Shown here: positions 28,541 to 39,143 of the stretch, one piece after another
Layout of the letters: every line of letters begins with the position of its first letter
How positions within the stretch are numbered: position 1 is the first letter of the stretch
Source of the DNA: a bacterium
GTDB taxonomy: Bacteria > Desulfobacterota > Binatia > Binatales > Binataceae
Assembly: GCA_014896235.1 (NCBI GenBank)
Contig: JADBKU010000002.1
Location: 58,307-122,306, forward strand
Length of the DNA: 64,000 bases
Reading direction: 5' to 3'
Program-made: the position numbers and the translations under genes
Notes under the pieces: model-generated
Databases searched by the model: none
What the model was told of the DNA's origin: nothing
Seen by the model: only the letters and a program-made list of their open reading frames with translations

Positions 28541-29289
28541 AACCGCCGTTCGACCGTTTTCTGGTAATCCCGTCGATCGATTTGAAGGGCGGGGAAGTGG
28601 TGCGGCTGTTGCGCGGCGACATGAACCGCGCGACAGTCTATGGCGCCGATCCGGCCGCGGCCGCGCGCGCGTTTGAGCGCGACGGCGCGGCGCTAATCCA
28701 CATCGTCGATCTGGACGGCGCGATCGCGGGCGAACCGCGCAACCTCGCGGCCATCGCGGCGATCCGCGCGGCGGTGCGATGCCGAATCGACGTGAGCGGC
28801 GGGCTGCGGACGATCGGATCCGTACGCGCCGCGATCGCGGCTGGCGCTGATTTCATCTCGATCGGCTCGGCGGCGTTTCTCGATCCGGAATTGATTCGCC
28901 AGGCATGCGAAGAATTTCCCGGACGAATCTTCGGCTCGCTCGATTTGCGCGGCGGAAAGCTCGCGATTCGCGGCTGGGTCGAGACCAGCGAACTCGGCGT
29001 CGCCGAAGCCGCGGAACGGTTTCGGACGGCCGGGGTCGCGGCGATAATCGCCACCGATATCACGCGGGACGGTGCTGAAACGGGCGCCGATCTCGAGCTG
29101 TTCGCAAGCGTCGCACAAACCGCCGGCGTGCCGATTATCGCGTCGGGCGGAGTCGCGACGCTGGCAGACCTGCGCGCGTTGCGAAATCTCTACGCGCAAG
29201 GCGTGGTCGGCGCCATTTCCGGCCGTGCGATCTATGAAGGCCGTTTTCGGCTGGCCGACGCTATCGCGGTTACCGCGAATCGGCAATAA
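28537..29289 (+). CDS. hisA: 1-(5-phosphoribosyl)-5-[(5-phosphoribosylamino)methylideneamino]imidazole-4-carboxamide isomerase
   Basis: FLVIPSIDLKGGEVVRLLRGD...IIHIVDLDGAIAGEPRN, DVSGGLRTIGSV, IIASGGVATLADL. Start codon uncertain: only CTG (28537, overlapping hisB TGA) or CTG 28561 near the conserved N-terminus. Confidence 0.92.
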   Translation: MKPPFDRFLVIPSIDLKGGEVVRLLRGDMNRATVYGADPAAAARAFERDGAALIHIVDLDGAIAGEPRNLAAIAAIRAAVRCRIDVSGGLRTIGSVRAAIAAGADFISIGSAAFLDPELIRQACEEFPGRIFGSLDLRGGKLAIRGWVETSELGVAEAAERFRTAGVAAIIATDITRDGAETGADLELFASVAQTAGVPIIASGGVATLADLRALRNLYAQGVVGAISGRAIYEGRFRLADAIAVTANRQ

Positions 29290-29479
29290 TCGTCTTTCTT
29301 CGCATATAAACGGTTAACGCTGCGGTGCGGCGATCCTGCGAATCGCGGCCATGAGCATCAGCGGCGCGCTATCCTAAGAATCGATCGGCAACTTTATGTA
29401 AGTCTGCCGAAAATCTCTCCGCATATAGCTTTAATTCTCTACGTGTGGCCCTTAGCGGGAACTTGGGCGTATTTTGCTC

Positions 29480-29508
29480 TTGACTAATCTTTGAGCCAAT
29501 ATCATTAT
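29480..29508 (+). promoter_or_regulatory. Candidate promoter for Tad-like cluster
   Basis: TTGACT (29480-29485), 17-nt spacer, CATTAT (29503-29508) in AT-richer leader. Confidence 0.35.
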
Positions 29509-29596
29509 GACGTTGCAAAAAGGTGACAGAAATGGTGGCTGTGAGGAGACAGTGTCGCGTTGGTGAAACCAAAACTGTTTCATTGGAGTAACTACG

Positions 29597-30688
29597 ATGC
29601 CTGCGCGAAACAAGAGACCAGTCGTGAAATTTTCGCCACGTTACGCAAAAGGCCAGATGGCCGTTATCCTCACGCTCGTAATTGCGACGCTGATTGGCGC
29701 GATGGCGCTCGGCGCGGACGTCGCCGTGATGTACTTCAACCATCTGCAACTGCAGAAGGGCGTCGATGCGGCGGCGCTGGCCGGCGCCAATTTTCTTGAG
29801 GGCAGCTACACGTATACGCCGACCAACGCCAACTGCGGCGGCCAGAGCGACTATGCGAAAGAGGCGGCCTGCGATTACGCGGCCAACGACGGCCTGATCT
29901 CCGCGAACAATACGACATTGACTTTCAACGAACCCGGCACGGGCCTGCCCGCCGGCGCCCCGACGCCTAACATCCAGGTGATCGCGAGTCGCAGCAATCT
30001 TCCCTATTTGTTCGGGCGGGTGCTGGGACTGAACAGCTACACGGTCGCCGCGGTGGCGACGGCCAAGGCAAGCGGACCAACGACCTCGGTCAACGGTATG
30101 TTTCCGATGGGCATGCAGTGCACCTCGCCGTGCTCGCTCGCCAATGTAACGCCCGGAAGCCCGGTGCAGTTCAACGTGAAGTTCACGCCGTTTGCGGAGG
30201 CGCCGGGTAATTGGCAGTGGCTGAATAACGGTTCGGGAGCTAGCGGGCTTGCGAGCGCGATAACCAACGGTATGTCTGGAACTTATTCTGTTTACGGAAG
30301 CGGCGGAACCGGACAAACTTTCATTACGACCGAGCCGGGCAATAAAGGCAACTCAGGGCCGGTAAATCAGGCCTTTACCTCCCGATTCAGCTCGCCTAAT
30401 TGCCCAGCGCTGTCGTCCGATCCTTGCGGTGGTGGCAGCGTTACCGACATTCCACCCGGCGATCCTTGTTTGGTGGTTGTGCCGGCAGTGGATTACGCCG
30501 GTTGCAACGGCCAATGCACCGCGAACATTCTTGCCTTCGCTGACGTCTATATCGAGCCAGGCAGCAACACGAGAAATAACACGAACATCACGGCGTGTTT
30601 CGTGCAAGCCGTCACTGCCAACACGATTTCGGGCGGTTCGAATCCGGTGAACCTCGGATCGTATGCGCAACCTCAATTGATCGAGTGA
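29597..30688 (+). CDS. TadG-like pilus assembly/secreted protein (copy 1)
   Basis: Tad N-terminal motif GQMAVILTLVIATLIGAMALGADVAVMYFNHLQLQKGVDAAALAGANFL. Confidence 0.8.
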   Translation: MPARNKRPVVKFSPRYAKGQMAVILTLVIATLIGAMALGADVAVMYFNHLQLQKGVDAAALAGANFLEGSYTYTPTNANCGGQSDYAKEAACDYAANDGLISANNTTLTFNEPGTGLPAGAPTPNIQVIASRSNLPYLFGRVLGLNSYTVAAVATAKASGPTTSVNGMFPMGMQCTSPCSLANVTPGSPVQFNVKFTPFAEAPGNWQWLNNGSGASGLASAITNGMSGTYSVYGSGGTGQTFITTEPGNKGNSGPVNQAFTSRFSSPNCPALSSDPCGGGSVTDIPPGDPCLVVVPAVDYAGCNGQCTANILAFADVYIEPGSNTRNNTNITACFVQAVTANTISGGSNPVNLGSYAQPQLIE

Positions 30689-30725
30689 GGCCATAACGAT
30701 TCTCCAAGGCGTTTGACGGAATTTT

Positions 30726-30764
30726 CGGGCCGCGTCGCAGGATGGTACGTTCTGACGCGGCCCG
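30726..30764 (+). terminator. Hairpin, possible terminator or attenuator
   Basis: 11-bp perfect stem CGGGCCGCGTC / GACGCGGCCCG, 17-nt loop, followed by CTTCATTTT. Confidence 0.55.
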
Positions 30765-30933
30765 CTTCATTTTGAGAGTGCCGCAATCCGTCCGAACCTC
30801 CGCTTTTACATGATAAAAGGGCCTTTTTCGGCCAATTCCAGCGGCCGATCGACGGCACGCTACCTGCTCTATCCGATCGGGCGCTGGGCGGCGGCGTGAG
30901 CTCTCTCGCCAGCCCGGACCGCGGAAGTTCAGG

Positions 30934-32031
30934 ATGGTCGCGTCATTTTCAGCGTTTCTTGATTGGGCGGCAAAACGGCCCAAAACCGTTGCGCGCGGGT
31001 TCGCTCGCGGTCAGGCGCTGACCATTATTATTCCAGCGCTCGTGGTGCTAATCGGCGGGATGGCCCTGTGCGCCGATTTCAGCGTGACGCTGCACGAATG
31101 GATGATCTTGCGCAAGGCGGCGGACGCCGCCGCGCTGGCGGGCGCGACCTATCTGCTGCCGGCGACCACCGGCGCCTCGACGCTGCCGCCGATAACGCTT
31201 AACGGTTCGTGCAGCTTCACTTCGCAAGCGGAAAACGTCGCGTGCACCTACGCGATGCAGAACTTCGCGCAAATTTCGGACATCAGCGCGATCGAATATC
31301 CCGCGCCGGACTATTCGGGTTCGACCCAAACGATCGAAGTCGTTTTAAAGCGGACCACCGTGCCGGTCCTGTTTCTTCGCGCGCTTTCCTCGATGACCGA
31401 CTACACGGTGGGCGCGATGGCGATCGCGGAAGCGCCGACCGCGGCCAGCACGATTCGCAACGGGCTGTTCCCCGCCGGGATGCCGGCGGATCCAAACGGC
31501 GGCGCGCTAACCTATGGCGAATCCTTTCAACTCACCGGCAGCTATTCTCCCGGAAACTGGGGGTGGTTGAACATCCCGGCTGATTCAAGCGGCGGTTCGT
31601 CGGCATCGACGGCCCCGCAGGGAACCGACAGCGGCTCAAGCAATCTGGCCAACAATATCGAATACGGATGCACTTGTACGGCTTCGGTCGGGCAGTGGTT
31701 CAATACCGAAACGGGCGTCAATGCCGGGCCGGTGGCGAACGCGATGGCGGCAATCGGTGTGAGTTCGACGCCGACGCCGCTGCCGTCAACTCTGACCGGC
31801 AACGAGCCGCAACTCGTGACGGTGCCGGTGGTCGATTGGAGCACGGCGTCTGGCGGCTCGGGCGCTGTGCAAATTCTGGGATTCGCCGAAGTCTGGCTGT
31901 CCAGCTATACGAAAAGCTCGAGCACCGAGCGTTTGACCGTCCAATTCGTCCAGTACGTATCCAAATTCGCGACTGCTGGCGGCGCCGCCAACAGTTTCGG
32001 CGCGTTCGCACCGGCGCAGCTCGTCGAGTAA
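30934..32031 (+). CDS. TadG-like protein (copy 2)
   Basis: RGQALTIIIPALVVLIGGMALCADFSVTLHEWMILRKAADAAALAGATYL. Confidence 0.78.
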   Translation: MVASFSAFLDWAAKRPKTVARGFARGQALTIIIPALVVLIGGMALCADFSVTLHEWMILRKAADAAALAGATYLLPATTGASTLPPITLNGSCSFTSQAENVACTYAMQNFAQISDISAIEYPAPDYSGSTQTIEVVLKRTTVPVLFLRALSSMTDYTVGAMAIAEAPTAASTIRNGLFPAGMPADPNGGALTYGESFQLTGSYSPGNWGWLNIPADSSGGSSASTAPQGTDSGSSNLANNIEYGCTCTASVGQWFNTETGVNAGPVANAMAAIGVSSTPTPLPSTLTGNEPQLVTVPVVDWSTASGGSGAVQILGFAEVWLSSYTKSSSTERLTVQFVQYVSKFATAGGAANSFGAFAPAQLVE

Positions 32032-32192
32032 ACCGCATATAACTTCCACCGGCGCTGATTGTGCGCGCGATTCCATTTACGTTGCAGTCGCGCAACAACA
32101 AGCGCCGCACCTCGCCAAGTATTTCACCATTGGCATAATTTAGCCTAAATTAACATGTTATATTACGGCATGTGGCTTGCTAATCAGCCGCA

Positions 32193-32236
32193 ACTAGAAA
32201 TTCAGATGATTTATTTGGTTTAGAGCAATTTCTAGT
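32193..32236 (+). promoter_or_regulatory. Inverted repeat in 5' leader of TadG copy 3
   Basis: ACTAGAAATT (32193-32202) / AATTTCTAGT (32227-32236), perfect 10-bp arms, directly before GAGG SD. Confidence 0.55.
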
Positions 32237-32243
32237 CGAGGCG

Positions 32244-33380
32244 TTGGCGATGAAATGGCAAAAGACGCATGATTTATCTGTCAGGGCAGCCGTAAAGCGC
32301 ATTCAGCGATACTCTTCAGGCCAGACGGCCGTAATCCTCACGCTGGCAATCGTGACGCTTATTGGCGCTATGGCGTTGGGCGCCGACGTCGCGGTGTTCT
32401 ATTTTAATCATATGCAACTCCAGAAGGCTGCAGATGCGGCGGCGCTTGCCGGCGCCTCTTATTTGCCCTCCGATCCGGCCACTGCGACAGCGACCGCGCA
32501 AACTTATGCGACCAATAACGGCATCAAGAACACCGACACCTTTAACTCGCAGACCCTAGCGAACGATACCGAACTCGAGGTGACGATTCAGCGCACCGTT
32601 CCCTATTTCTTCGCCCGGTTGCTCGGACTGACGAACGGGATCGTCGGGGTCGAGGCGATTGCGCAGAACTCGGGTTCGACAAGCACGGTTAATTGCGGTC
32701 CGAACTGTCCGGTCGCCGGCGCCACAGGCAGCAATACGACGGCCGGCAGCGGAGCGGTCGGCAGCGGAGCGCCGTTTGCCGGCGGATGCGGCTCATCGAC
32801 CGGTCAATACAACGTGCTGCCGATCGCCGTGGATTATCTTACGGCAGGTTCTTATGTTCAGGGACAATCGTACACGCTGAATCGGATGGATTCGGTCGGC
32901 AACGGGCCATGGGTCGATGCGCCGGGCAATTGGGGCTTCGTTTCGTTATGCGGCAACGGCAACGGCGGCGCGGGACTGAGGACAGCGATCGCTGACGGCT
33001 ATTACGGCGAATTAAGCATCGGCAACACGCTCGAAACGGTGCCTGGCGTCAAAAACGGCCCTGCAAGTCAAGGACTTCAGGGCCTGCTCGATCGCGCGCC
33101 GGGAACTTCAGCCGTGCCGACGCCAGCGACCTTCAACCCGAGCGATCCACGCGCCGTGATCATCCCGATGGTCAATTTCCAAGGGTGTACCGGGAAGTGC
33201 GCCGTGCCAATCACCGGCTTCCTGGCCTTTTACATCAACGAGGTGAGCACCGGCACAAACTCCAATGGCGTCAGCGGCGCGATTCAAGGAACGTTTATCG
33301 CGATGGTCGATCCGAACAGCGTGTCGAGCATCAACGCACCAAACGCGGGCGCGTTGAGCGATGCCGTTCTGATCAAATAA
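32244..33380 (+). CDS. TadG-like protein (copy 3)
   Basis: SGQTAVILTLAIVTLIGAMALGADVAVFYFNHMQLQKAADAAALAGASYL; start TTG 32244 or ATG 32250. Confidence 0.8.
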   Translation: MAMKWQKTHDLSVRAAVKRIQRYSSGQTAVILTLAIVTLIGAMALGADVAVFYFNHMQLQKAADAAALAGASYLPSDPATATATAQTYATNNGIKNTDTFNSQTLANDTELEVTIQRTVPYFFARLLGLTNGIVGVEAIAQNSGSTSTVNCGPNCPVAGATGSNTTAGSGAVGSGAPFAGGCGSSTGQYNVLPIAVDYLTAGSYVQGQSYTLNRMDSVGNGPWVDAPGNWGFVSLCGNGNGGAGLRTAIADGYYGELSIGNTLETVPGVKNGPASQGLQGLLDRAPGTSAVPTPATFNPSDPRAVIIPMVNFQGCTGKCAVPITGFLAFYINEVSTGTNSNGVSGAIQGTFIAMVDPNSVSSINAPNAGALSDAVLIK

Positions 33381-33604
33381 CACGATGATGTGGTAGCGTG
33401 CGTTTCGCGTTGAGACGCCGCGTAGGAAGAAATCTTTCGGTCTTTCCTCTTTACGGCGTCCTGCTTGGTTTAAGAGCGCAGCGTCTGCGGCTGTTGGTCT
33501 GATTTTTGCCCCTAAGTTCTGCGCCTGAAACATTTGAATAGCCAATTTGCGGTCTATAAGCAGCTTTTTCTGCTTTTGGCGATTCAATGAGGGGAGGCGA
33601 TTAG

Positions 33605-34900
33605 GTGACAGGGCGAAATTTTGTTGCATCGCTGCAACATTTGTTGAAAAGCTCCCGACGCGCGCAAACGACCGTTCTGGTGACGGTCGGCTTGGTGGCG
33701 ATGCTTGGTATCTCCGCGCTTGCGGTGGACGTCGGCGAACTCTGGACCACGCGCCATCTGATGCAGACCGCGGCGGATGCCGGCGCGCTGGCGGGGGTGG
33801 ACGCGATCACGATCGGCCAGACCACGCTGGACGATATCACCATGGCGGCCGACGCGGCGACCGCGCAAAACGGCTTTACCAACAATTCCGGAACGGCGGT
33901 CAACCCCAGCACCGTGACGGTCACGGTCGTGAATCCGCCAACCACCGGGCCGTACGCCAACAACACCAACGCCGTGCAGGTGACGGTGGCGCAGGTTCAG
34001 CCAACTTTTTTCATGCGCGTGCTGGGATGGAAAAGCGTGCCGGTCTCGGCACAGGCGACCGCGCTCACGACCTCGGGCGGTTCGTGCGTATATGCGCTTA
34101 ATCCGACAGCTTCGGGCACAATCAGTTTCTCGGGCAACGGCAGCATGAATTCTTCCTGTGGAGTCTACGACGATTCCAATAGCAGCTCGGCCCTGATTGT
34201 CGGCGGTACGAGCACGCTTACCGCTCCATTGGTAGGAGTGGTGGGAGGAACCACCATCAACGGCGGCGGCAGCAGCCCGCCGACCTCGGGAATCGCGGCG
34301 TTCGGCGATCCGCTGGCGTGGGTGCCCGAGCCGACCGGATATAGCTGCTCCAGTTTTCCTGGCACCAAGGTTAATTCTTCGACGACGCTTTCACAGGGCA
34401 CCTACTGCGGTGGGATAAAGATAACGGGCAGCAACACCAACGTGACGTTCAACCCCGGCACTTACGTCATTGACGGCGGAGGCCTGACGATCACTGGAGG
34501 AACGGTAAGAGGGAGCGGCGTTACGTTCTATCTCACCGGGGTCAACAAAGCGGCCTCGAATCCGCAGGATTACGCCGGAGTGAACATAAATGGCGGCACG
34601 GTAAATCTGAGCGCGCCGTGCGACAACAGCGGCGGCGGAATCGAGGGCATGTTGTTTTTCCAGGACCGCTCCATCACCAGCGGGGTGGGCAGCGTTATCA
34701 ATGGAAATACCGGTTCGACATTTACCGGCGCGCTATATTTTCCGACGACCTCGCTGAGTTATGCCGGAACTTCCGGGGCCGACCAATACACCTATCTGGT
34801 CGCCAATACGCTCACGATCACGGGCACAACTACGATCGGCAACAATTACAGTTGCCTCGCGAACGGCAATCTCATCAAGGACGCGGCGCTGGTTTTTTAG
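33605..34900 (+). CDS. TadG-like protein (copy 4) with repetitive beta-rich C-terminal region
   Basis: RAQTTVLVTVGLVAMLGISALAVDVGELWTTRHLMQTAADAGALAGVDAI; Gly/Thr/Ser-rich NVTFNPGTYVIDGGGLTITGGTVRGSGVTFYLTG. Confidence 0.75.
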   Translation: MTGRNFVASLQHLLKSSRRAQTTVLVTVGLVAMLGISALAVDVGELWTTRHLMQTAADAGALAGVDAITIGQTTLDDITMAADAATAQNGFTNNSGTAVNPSTVTVTVVNPPTTGPYANNTNAVQVTVAQVQPTFFMRVLGWKSVPVSAQATALTTSGGSCVYALNPTASGTISFSGNGSMNSSCGVYDDSNSSSALIVGGTSTLTAPLVGVVGGTTINGGGSSPPTSGIAAFGDPLAWVPEPTGYSCSSFPGTKVNSSTTLSQGTYCGGIKITGSNTNVTFNPGTYVIDGGGLTITGGTVRGSGVTFYLTGVNKAASNPQDYAGVNINGGTVNLSAPCDNSGGGIEGMLFFQDRSITSGVGSVINGNTGSTFTGALYFPTTSLSYAGTSGADQYTYLVANTLTITGTTTIGNNYSCLANGNLIKDAALVF

Positions 34901-34915
34901 CATAGAGGTACGGCG

Positions 34916-35344
34916 ATGATTGCGCGGAAAAAAAACTCCAAAGGGCAGAGCATGGTCGAGATGGCGCTGCTGCTGCCGCTGCTCGCGCTGGTGTTCGTGG
35001 TGGCGGCCGATTTCGCGCGGGTGTTTTACGAATCGATCGAAGTGGCTCACGCCGCGCGCGCCGGCGTGCAGTATGGCGCGCAGAACCTGGTGAAGGCGGT
35101 CGATTATATCGGGATGGAAAATGCGGCGCTTAACGACGGCTCGAACATCTCGGGCCTGTCCGCGACCGCGTCATATTTCTGCACTTGCAACCAGCAGACG
35201 GTGGCGTGCTCGCCGCCGGGATGCGCGGAGCCGCAGGTTTTCGTCAAGGTCACAACGAGCGCGACCTTCAAGACAATTCTCAATTATCCCGGAATCGGTC
35301 ACACGATACCGTTGAAGACCACGGCGATGCTAGAGGTGCAGTAG
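34916..35344 (+). CDS. TadE-like protein
   Basis: KGQSMVEMALLLPLLALVFVVAADFARVFYESIEVAHAARAGVQYGAQ. Confidence 0.85.
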   Translation: MIARKKNSKGQSMVEMALLLPLLALVFVVAADFARVFYESIEVAHAARAGVQYGAQNLVKAVDYIGMENAALNDGSNISGLSATASYFCTCNQQTVACSPPGCAEPQVFVKVTTSATFKTILNYPGIGHTIPLKTTAMLEVQ

Positions 35345-35347
35345 GCC

Positions 35348-35776
35348 ATGGATACGAGAAAGCGAAATTCTCCGGCCTTCAGATTGCGCGGGCACTCGCG
35401 CGGTCAGAGCGGGGTTGAATTCGCGGGTACGGCGCTGCTGTTGTTCACGGCGGTGTTCGGCATCTTCTGCGCGTCGATGTTGCTGTACGCCTACAACTTC
35501 GTCTCGAATTCCGCGCGAGACGCGGTTCGTTACGCGATCGTCCATGGTTCGCACAGTCTCAATCCGGCGACGGCGGACGATATCACCGCTTTCGTCAAAA
35601 ACATGGCGAGCGGACTTCAAGCGAACAATATTACCGTTTCCACGACCTGGACTCCGAACAACGATCCGGGCAGCCTTGTCGAGGTTCAGGTGACTTACGA
35701 TTTCCAGCCATTTTTCCCGTTTTCATCGACGGCTTTGCCGCTCACGAGCACATCAGAAATGGTGATCAGCAACTGA
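35348..35776 (+). CDS. TadE-like protein
   Basis: RGQSGVEFAGTALLLFTAVFGIFCASMLLYAYNFVSNSARDAVRYAIVHGS. Confidence 0.8.
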   Translation: MDTRKRNSPAFRLRGHSRGQSGVEFAGTALLLFTAVFGIFCASMLLYAYNFVSNSARDAVRYAIVHGSHSLNPATADDITAFVKNMASGLQANNITVSTTWTPNNDPGSLVEVQVTYDFQPFFPFSSTALPLTSTSEMVISN

Positions 35777-35859
35777 CGGCTCCAACTGCGGTTGGCGTGG
35801 CTTGGGGGGAACGCGGCGTCGGAGAGAGATCTCCGGCGCCGCGGCGCTTTCCGAAGCCC

Positions 35860-36924
35860 TCATCGCCCGCTTTTCGAGCCTGCGCCAAGGCCGGAGATTT
35901 TCTTGAGTCTGACGACTGGATTCGCGCAGCATCGCGGACGCCGCCCCGCGAATACGTCGAGAATATTGTCAACCGCGAGTTCCGCCATCAGTTCGCGCGT
36001 GCGATGGCTGGCGCTGCCGATATGCGGCGTGATCGTGACGTTCGGGAATTTCAGCAACGGATCGTCCGGCGCGATCGGTTCAACTTCCAAAACATCAAGT
36101 CCCGCGCCGCCGAGACGTCCGGAACGCAGGGCCTCGATCAGCGCTTTCTGATCGACGACCGCGCCACGCGCCGTATTAATCAGAATCGCTCCGCGCTTCA
36201 TCGCGGCGAACTGCTCGCGCCCGATCATTCCGCGGGTTGCGGGCGTCAGCGGCACGTTGAGCGAGATGAAATCCGACTCCGCGAGCAGGCGCGCAAGCGG
36301 AACGGGATTGGCGACTGGCGGATCGGCGGCTGCTTCGATTCCGGCGCGCGCAGGCCGTTTCGCGCGCAAGTCGTGATGAAGCGCGTAAATCACGTTCATG
36401 CCGAGCGCGGCGGCGCGGCGGGCGACCGCCCGGCCGATCGATCCAAAGCCGATTATGCCGAGCGTGGCGCCCGCGAGATCGCGTCCGAGCATCAGCCGCG
36501 GCGTCCACATCCGCCACCGCCGGGCGCGGACGAAACGATCCGCTTCAACGACGCGCCGCGCCACCGCGAACATCAGGGCGATAGCGAGTTCGGCGGTGGT
36601 ATCGGCGAGCACGCCTGGCGTGTGGCCGACGGCGACGCCGGCGCGCGTCGCGGCGGCGAGATCGATGTTGTCGAGGCCGACGGCGAGATTGCTGACGACG
36701 CGGAGATGGGGGGCCTGCCGGAAAAGCGCGGCGTCGATGCGATCGCTGACCATGGTCAGAATCGCATCGCATCCGCGCGATCGCTTGACCAAATCGGCGT
36801 GCGGCGGAGGCGCGTCGTCGTCCCACAAATCGACCCGCGCGCACGCGGCCAAACGGCGCAACGCCGGCGCGGCGATCGGCCGCGTGACGAAGACCCGCAA
36901 TGCGGAAGAATTGGACAGAGCCAT
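35860..36924 (-). CDS. D-isomer specific 2-hydroxyacid dehydrogenase
   Basis: LAGATLGIIGFGSIGRAVARRAAALGMNVIY, FISLNVPLTPATRGMIGREQFAAMKRGAILINTARGAVVDQKALIEAL; start ATG 36924. Confidence 0.93.
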   Translation of the reverse strand: MALSNSSALRVFVTRPIAAPALRRLAACARVDLWDDDAPPPHADLVKRSRGCDAILTMVSDRIDAALFRQAPHLRVVSNLAVGLDNIDLAAATRAGVAVGHTPGVLADTTAELAIALMFAVARRVVEADRFVRARRWRMWTPRLMLGRDLAGATLGIIGFGSIGRAVARRAAALGMNVIYALHHDLRAKRPARAGIEAAADPPVANPVPLARLLAESDFISLNVPLTPATRGMIGREQFAAMKRGAILINTARGAVVDQKALIEALRSGRLGGAGLDVLEVEPIAPDDPLLKFPNVTITPHIGSASHRTRELMAELAVDNILDVFAGRRPRCCANPVVRLKKISGLGAGSKSGR

Positions 36925-36968
36925 GACGCGATTCAAATAACCCGGAAGCTCTGCTATACGCCACACTC

Positions 36969-39143
36969 GTGGACGCGAAAACGATCGACGAATTGTTGCA
37001 ATCGGCGCTTGCGGCGAGGCGCGGGACGCTGACGGAAATCGATTCCAAGCGGATTCTCGCCGCGGGCGGAATCGCTGTGGCCGTTCCGGAGATGGCCGCT
37101 ACCGCTGATGCGGCCGCCGCAGCCGCTGCGCGAATCGGATTTCCGGTCGTCCTGAAAGTTCATTCAAGCGGCGTCACGCACAAAAGCGACGTTGGCGGCG
37201 TGGCGCTCAATCTGCGCAACGCGACCGAGGTTCGCGACGGATTCGAGCGGATCAAGCGCGCGCTGGCCGAGCGGGCGCCGCACGCCGCGTTCGACGGCGT
37301 CGCCGTGCAGCCGCAGGCGCGGCCGGGCGTCGAAGTGATCGTCGGCGCAACCCGCGACGATCGCTTCGGGCCGATGATCGTCGCGGGACTGGGCGGAGTT
37401 TTCGTCGAAACGCTGAAAGACACGGCGATGCGGCTGGCGCCGATCGGCGCGCGCGAGGCGCGCACGATGCTCGAAGAATTGCGCGGGGCGCCTCTGTTGC
37501 ACGGCGCGCGCGGCCGCGCCCCGGTTGATCTCGACGCGCTCGCGAGCTTGATCGCAAAGGTGTCGGAAATCGCGGCGGCGCATCCGGAAATCGCCGAGCT
37601 GGATCTTAATCCGGTCGTCGCGTACGAGAGCGGTCTGGCCGTACTTGACGCGCGCGTGGTCGTGGCGCAGCAAGCGACACAGCGAGCGATCGACGATCCG
37701 GAACGCCATCGGCGGCGGATCGAAAACCTAAAACGCTCATTCGCCGCGAAAGTAGTCGCCGTGATCGGCGACAAGCGCGCGGGCGGCTACCTGTGGCTGC
37801 GCGCGATGAAGCGCTTTTCCGGCAAACTCTATTCCGTGCAAATCGACCCCAAAGAAATTCCCGGGATCGAGGAGATGGGCGTCGCCAACGTGAAATCGCT
37901 CGCCGAAATCGGCGAGCCGATCGATTATGCGGTGAGCGCGGTGCCGCGCCAGGTCGCGCCGCGAATCCTGAGCGATTGCGTGGCGAACAAGGTCGCCGGC
38001 ATCGGATTTTTCACCTCGGGCTTTTCGGAGACCGGAGAGGAAGTCGGCGTCAAGCTGGAAAACGAACTGCGCGCCATCGCGGCGGCTTCCGATATAGCGC
38101 TGATTGGTCCGAATTGCATGGGTCTCTACAATCCGGCGGTCGGGATTGCGAATTTTCCGGATCTGAGCGCCGGCCAATCCGGCGATGTCTGCTTTATCTC
38201 GCAGAGCGGAACCCATTGCATCAATTTTTGTTCGCAGGCGCCGAGACATGGAATCCGCATCAACAAGGCCGCGTCGATCGGCAACGCGCTGATCTTGGAA
38301 GCGGCGGATTATATCGACGTGATGACTGAGGATCCGGCGACGCGCGCGCTCGGGATGTACATCGAGGGCGTGCGCAACGGCCGGCGTTTTTTTGAAAGTT
38401 TGCGGCGCGCGGCCGCGCGCCATCCGGTCGTGGTCTGGAAAGGCGGCATGACCGAAGCGGGGGCGCGCGCGACGTTTTCGCATACCGGTTCGCTGGCGAC
38501 TCCCGCGGCGGTTTGGAATGCGATGGTGCGGCAGAGCGGCGCGGTCGGCGTCGCGGGACTCGACGCGATGCTGGACGCGATGGAGATGGTCGCGCGTGGG
38601 CGGCCGGTCAAAGGCCGGCGGATGGGCCTGGTAGCGATGACCGGAGGCCAGTCGGTGGTGATAACTGACACCTTCGCGGGCGCGGGACTCGAAATTCCCG
38701 CCCTGTCGGAGGCGTCATATTCGGAATTGGGCAGTTTCTTCAACATTATCGGCGGCAGCTTTCGCAATCCGCTCGACGCCGGCGGAACGATTGGCGGCGG
38801 CGGAGTGGCGACCGGAAATCTCGAGCGAATTCTTGAAATTCTCGATCGCGATTCCGTCATCGACGCCATCGTGCTTGAAGTAGGCACCGGATTGCGCGCG
38901 CAGCGCTGGGCCGCGCACGAGGACGAACTGACCGCATTCCTTGACAAACTGGCCGAGTTCGCGGGCAAGTCGCCGAAACCGTTCGTGCTGGTGATGCATC
39001 CGGCGCATCTCGAGGAGTTGGTGGCGAAAGGCAAACGCCTCGCGCGCGAGCGAGGCTTGGTCGTGTTCGACAGTTTCGAGCGGTCGGCCGCGGCGATGCG
39101 GGTTTCATACGACTACTGGTCGAGGCGGGCCGATTCGGCCTGA
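36969..39143 (+). CDS. Acetate--CoA ligase (ADP-forming)-family protein, ATP-grasp domain N-terminal
   Basis: FPVVLKVHSSGVTHKSDVGGVALNLRN (ATP-grasp) precedes CoA-binding/ligase region (VVAVIGDKRAGGYLWLRAMKRF..., LIGPNCMGLYNPAVGIANFPDLSAGQSGDVCFISQSGTH). Confidence 0.88.
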   Translation: MDAKTIDELLQSALAARRGTLTEIDSKRILAAGGIAVAVPEMAATADAAAAAAARIGFPVVLKVHSSGVTHKSDVGGVALNLRNATEVRDGFERIKRALAERAPHAAFDGVAVQPQARPGVEVIVGATRDDRFGPMIVAGLGGVFVETLKDTAMRLAPIGAREARTMLEELRGAPLLHGARGRAPVDLDALASLIAKVSEIAAAHPEIAELDLNPVVAYESGLAVLDARVVVAQQATQRAIDDPERHRRRIENLKRSFAAKVVAVIGDKRAGGYLWLRAMKRFSGKLYSVQIDPKEIPGIEEMGVANVKSLAEIGEPIDYAVSAVPRQVAPRILSDCVANKVAGIGFFTSGFSETGEEVGVKLENELRAIAAASDIALIGPNCMGLYNPAVGIANFPDLSAGQSGDVCFISQSGTHCINFCSQAPRHGIRINKAASIGNALILEAADYIDVMTEDPATRALGMYIEGVRNGRRFFESLRRAAARHPVVVWKGGMTEAGARATFSHTGSLATPAAVWNAMVRQSGAVGVAGLDAMLDAMEMVARGRPVKGRRMGLVAMTGGQSVVITDTFAGAGLEIPALSEASYSELGSFFNIIGGSFRNPLDAGGTIGGGGVATGNLERILEILDRDSVIDAIVLEVGTGLRAQRWAAHEDELTAFLDKLAEFAGKSPKPFVLVMHPAHLEELVAKGKRLARERGLVVFDSFERSAAAMRVSYDYWSRRADSA

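Follow-up and report, generated by a model that had tools for sequence, protein, structure and literature searches.

A cluster of TadG- and TadE-like minor pilin genes apart from the Tad machinery, at a hisA–acyl-CoA synthetase insertion site

TadE- and TadG-like proteins are minor pilins, believed to be incorporated in the filament and to make up its tip (PMC12075869, PMC12607857), and TadG has been reported to be needed for Tad pili in other species (PMC12075869). Myxococcus xanthus has four KilLMN sets, homologous to TadE/F/G, which are predicted to be exchangeable tips; combinations of them are needed to kill different prey, and a role in prey killing has been shown for distant TadEFG-like tip gene clusters (PMC12075869). 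In Caulobacter crescentus, the large pilin-like protein CpaL is predicted to be positioned at the tip together with CpaJ and CpaK (PMC12607857).

The stretch of DNA analysed here (the window; 64 kb) covers positions 58307-122306 of contig C12 in the genome (G000) of an uncultured relative of the myxobacteria; it has 3.52 Mb, is 95% complete and is assembled in 64 contigs; the right end of the window is also the end of the contig. Four TadG-like and two TadE-like prepilins are encoded in tandem on the plus strand at 29597-35776. This array had been described in an earlier note made without database searches, and all six open reading frames were confirmed, five with the support of Pfam and the sixth, TadG2, through paralogy. 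TadG1 (29597-30688; leader YAKG/QMAVIL, the slash marking the predicted cleavage site), TadG3 (32244-33380; leader YSSG/QTAVIL) and TadG4 (33605-34900; leader SRRA/QTTVLV) matched the Pfam family Tad (PF13400) with 27.9 bits (2.9e-6), 33.6 bits (4.8e-8) and 30.9 bits (3.5e-7), respectively, all above the curated cut-off of 22.3. TadG2 (30934-32031; leader FARG/QALTII) had no Pfam match and was assigned by its 37% identity to TadG1 in a full-length alignment that included the N-terminal helix and the C-terminal PGNW motif. TadG1, a large minor pilin with a pilin domain, shares with TadG2 and TadG3 a C-terminal module with an invariant GNW (PGNW) motif. TadG4 carries the pilin domain Tad_C (PF09977; 1.4e-10), and its C-terminal half is a different, repetitive one. 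The small minor pilins TadE1 (34916-35344; leader SKG/QSMVE) and TadE2 (35348-35776; leader SRG/QSGVE) matched Pfam TadE (PF07811) with 38.2 bits (1.5e-9) and 33.4 bits (5.1e-8), above the curated cut-off of 22.9, and both leaders follow the pattern G/xxxxE with Glu at +5. The intergenic gaps from TadG1 to TadE2 are 245, 212, 224, 15 and 3 bp; by this packing TadG4-TadE1-TadE2 look like one operon-like unit, with TadG1, TadG2 and TadG3 spaced apart.

Like the Kil Tip clusters (KilL-KilM-KilN), of which several paralogous sets are present per genome and three of four lie outside the Kil machine clusters, the genes form TadE/TadG-like sets encoded apart from the machine, and the large member has a variable C-terminal domain; the likeness is one of gene sets and layout. 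Unlike in the Kil system, a single cassette contains four TadG and two TadE one after another, and three of the TadG have no partners of their own. Kil Tips 1-3 depend on T3SS*, whereas no gene for FHIPEP (PF00771), the export gate of T3SS or flagella, was found in the present genome, and hence no sign of a needleless T3SS*. With CpaJ-CpaK-CpaL, a predicted tip complex, the cluster has in common two small minor pilins and a large pilin-like protein extended by an additional C-terminal domain. CpaL has a vWA domain, whereas Pfam found no vWA match in TadG1-4; a relative (G007, L055) does have a vWA-bearing TadG, which adjoins two small prepilins with the leaders GQTAAE and GQSMLE in a CpaL-like arrangement (L055:7875-10132) and is one example of the other end domains seen on TadG of the family. 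With TadE/TadF/TadG of ordinary tad loci the proteins share the Pfam families TadE and Tad, the prepilin leader, and Glu at +5 in TadE and none in TadG, but the present genes are unlinked from machinery and expanded in number.

The GQ and AQ motifs quoted in the earlier note were all present. The distribution of Glu that it reported, present in the TadE-like and missing in the TadG-like proteins, was true for the cluster but is a property of the whole families and no peculiarity of this locus. TadE from related genomes had Glu at +5 in all 14 sequences inspected (two of them read by eye), and in readable TadG of related genomes the +5 residue was always L, V, I, M, F or A (32 rows, of which two were out of register and ignored). 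A hydrophobic residue instead of Glu at this position fits a first or tip subunit. The cleavage motif was retained in every readable TadG; in TadG4, Ala replaces Gly before the predicted cleavage site in the window genome and in two close relatives (G003 and G006). Elsewhere, Ala also precedes the cleavage site in a second Flp-like pilin (RRAQTMAEY; L007:14721-15023), which adjoins a normal Flp (KGQTMTEY; L007:15574-15765).

No Tad ATPase, platform, secretin, peptidase or Flp pilin was found in the 64 kb, in agreement with the earlier note: C12 had no match when the whole genome was searched for T2SSE, secretin and A24 peptidase, and in the window and the adjoining 20 kb on the left a scan for prepilin motifs detected TadE1 and TadE2 only. 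At least 28 kb of unrelated genes flank the cluster on either side. A complete tad locus (CpaF, TadB/C, RcpC, secretin and Flp linked to minor pilins) immediately outside would have made the cluster an ordinary locus fragment; none was present in the window or in the rest of C12, which was otherwise without a Tad match. The distant machinery that had been proposed was found in the same genome, on contigs C6 and C34. C6 encodes two Flp-like pilins, a TadE, RcpC (9e-27), a secretin (3e-38), a CpaE-like ATPase, CpaF (4e-66), TadB and TadC. C34 (L008:5000-12377) encodes Flp (L008:12123-12377), a CpaE-like ATPase, CpaF, TadB and TadC, and a sigma-54-type regulator/activator, a TPR protein and an AhpC-like redoxin are encoded near it; secretin and RcpC genes are absent nearby. 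This machine may use the secretin of C6, because the only other secretin of the genome is on C45. That secretin and a PilB-type ATPase on C24 are as for another type IV filament system. The single A24 prepilin peptidase found (C20; L043:1183-2055) has a cysteine-rich N-terminal part and is, as read from its sequence, of the PilD type, and it therefore probably works for the Tad pili as well as for the other filament system. No shared promoter signal linking the cluster with the machinery loci was found. A sigma-54 link between the cluster and the regulator beside the C34 machine was rejected, as the promoter motif was no more frequent than expected by chance in the window, C6 or C34. Matches in a generic promoter scan were at chance level as well, and those in a terminator scan were slightly above chance and mostly within genes.

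All matches to PF13400 and to the GNW module in G000, G003 and G006 were at the hisA site, and both CpaF machines were present in each of these three genomes. If TadG is needed for Tad pili, their machines must draw it from the hisA cluster. In the C6-type locus of the sister species G002 a TadG is kept before TadE and RcpC (L059), and that of G004 also has a TadG; G000 has no open reading frame for TadG at the position occupied in G002. Because all recognisable TadG of the genome and of the two close relatives sit in the cluster, the distant machinery most likely obtains its large minor (tip) pilins from there, although a TadG elsewhere in G000 may have been missed in an assembly of this completeness and number of contigs. 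Among 38 genomes, TadG and Tad machinery were both present in 25 and both absent in 9, with TadG only in 1 and machinery only in 3; this is an agreement of 34/38, and the P value of 1e-5 is optimistic since the species are related. In relatives, 9 of 48 PGNW-type TadG were at most 4 kb from CpaF or RcpC, compared with a chance expectation of 1-2%, and in G002 one lies directly before Flp-CpaE-CpaF-TadB-TadC (L058).

The interval between hisA and the acyl-CoA synthetase (window 28582-39143; L061-L068) is a family-wide insertion hot spot for pilus genes. Its left border, hisA (28582-29289, plus strand; Pfam His_biosynth 7e-64), is the last of the gene row murA-like/hisD/hisB/hisA and is conserved in relatives. 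The right neighbour of the cluster within the interval is a 2-hydroxyacid dehydrogenase (35860-36966, minus strand; Pfam 2-Hacid_dh_C 9.4e-64), and the right border is an acyl-CoA synthetase of the ADP-forming type (36969-39143, plus strand; Pfam ATP-grasp_5 and Succ_CoA_lig). The interval is empty in G012 and G014, where the synthetase lies within about 50 bp of hisA and the dehydrogenase is also missing; G012 has no Tad genes at all, and in G014 TadG adjoins its machine. It holds one TadG in G007, a TadE and two TadG in G018, Flp-Flp-TadE-TadG in G020 (Flp 1e-10 and 9e-9, TadE 1.6e-12) and an unrelated gene of 611 amino acids in G009. Within the genus of the window it contains G1-G2-G4-E1-E2 in G003, the same set followed by a TadG3-like start at the contig end in G001, G1-G2-G4 up to the contig end in G006 and G1-G3 in G004; in G002 the set is reshuffled and two of its genes are inverted. 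Orthologs of TadG1 are found at this site in G003, G006, G001 and G004; TadG2 has orthologs in G003, G006, G001 and G002, and TadG3 in G002, G004 and L060, a near relative placed in Myxococcota by the tree tool. TadG3 is missing between TadG2 and TadG4 in G003 and G006; its usual place in relatives is beside the dehydrogenase/acyl-CoA synthetase end, where L060 and G016 have a TadG.

In the tree, TadG1, TadG2 and TadG3 formed separate lineages with starred support, each including genes of sister species from the same site. The three paralogs are therefore older than the species of the genus, with losses and rearrangements coming later. The dN/dS values of the cluster genes (0.09-0.22) were similar to those of the flanking enzymes, which indicates purifying selection. 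Compared with G003 (L044), the synonymous divergence was 0.65 for TadG1 and 0.53 for TadG4, two to three times the 0.22-0.24 of their neighbours, and may reflect allele exchange. Among 118 genomes of the class, GNW-module proteins were confined to this family, where 15 genomes had 1-8 copies each; a search of 297 genomes of the phylum gave four distant matches outside the class. This expansion and the upkeep of three old lineages in sister species bear out the diversification that had been suggested. Searches of PDB sequences with the GNW-module profile, TadG1 and TadG4 gave nothing significant, Pfam gave one weak match in one member among 19 GNW-module sequences, and no paper on TadG in this lineage was found. 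AlphaFold models of TadG1 (from a four-row alignment, with the rows of the relatives' genomes left out) and TadG4 (from the single sequence) had a pLDDT of 34 and 37 and a pTM of 0.25 and 0.34, too low in confidence for use or for a fold search; the pilin fold is assigned by Pfam.

Taken as a whole, the cluster is probably a remote set of minor pilin genes that serves this bacterium's Tad pili (type IVc, Flp), whose machine is encoded elsewhere. Each prepilin would insert into the inner membrane, its leader would be cut after G (or A) by the PilD-type peptidase from C20, and the processed minor pilins would reach the assembly machine from C6 or C34. TadG4-TadE1-TadE2 would make up one complete TadGEE tip complex, which would start the filament and end at its tip. 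TadG1-3 may serve as alternatives for the large tip subunit, each exposing a related C-terminal module that could act in adhesion or in recognition of a ligand; having no partner genes of their own, they could use the same small partners, for instance TadE1/2 or the TadE of C6.

The TadG proteins might instead be stand-alone surface or periplasmic adhesins that act independently of Tad pili, with the pilin-like helix as membrane anchor and the Tad domain only as an export anchor. The 39 of 48 PGNW-type TadG of the family that lie away from machinery, the missing TadE partners next to TadG1-3, and genome G037, where TadG is present and machinery was not detected, would all agree with this. Yet the presence of TadG tracks that of machinery across genomes and the site is empty in the Tad-less G012, the same subtype occurs inside the tad loci of relatives, and the cleavage motif is kept, so that we consider such adhesins unlikely. 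About as unlikely is a displaced fragment of an ordinary tad locus, in which a rearrangement would have moved TadG4-TadE1-TadE2, the plain minor pilin trio of the C6 machine, and TadG1-3 would be redundant copies with no roles of their own. The hisA cluster may indeed replace a gene lost from the C6 locus, considering the TadG at that place in G002 and G004. However, TadG1-3 are old lineages, separately kept under purifying selection, and the reuse of the same interval with different gene sets in other genera is contrary to a single accident.

The earlier note had regarded the proteins as surface cargo of a secretion system. The large variable C-terminal halves and the distance to the machinery are compatible with cargo of a Tad-derived system, but the N-terminal prepilin leader and helix are those of minor pilin families, and homologous proteins in Myxococcus and Caulobacter are regarded as subunits of the filament (PMC12075869, PMC12607857), which makes this reading very improbable. 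They are better described as pilus tip subunits, part of the product of the machine. The earlier view was thus partly supported, being right about the distant machine and the diversification and wrong about cargo.

The cluster is real and coherent, and its points of interest are the lineage-specific domain and the mapped integration site. As a remote minor pilin set, it appears to be a stock of pilus tips that is kept separately and can be exchanged, in an uncommon layout but of a kind described only recently. More tentatively, and with some doubt, it may belong to a system, in a Myxococcota lineage that lacks T3SS, where Tad tips are used combinatorially: a TadG subfamily expanded in this lineage, whose C-terminal module is undescribed, would be stored and exchanged at the hisA–synthetase hot spot, and its members would be loaded as alternative tips onto pili made by one or two distant machines that they share. 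It was only in 2025 that Tad pilus tips were shown to be interchangeable in Myxococcus, and the family of the window is a separate case. The TadG C-terminal domain family with the GNW motif is a defined, unannotated target for structural and binding tests. In the family of the window, the tip genes are separate from the machine and turn over at a single mapped location, which makes it possible to trace how tips are gained and lost, with the empty site as a control.
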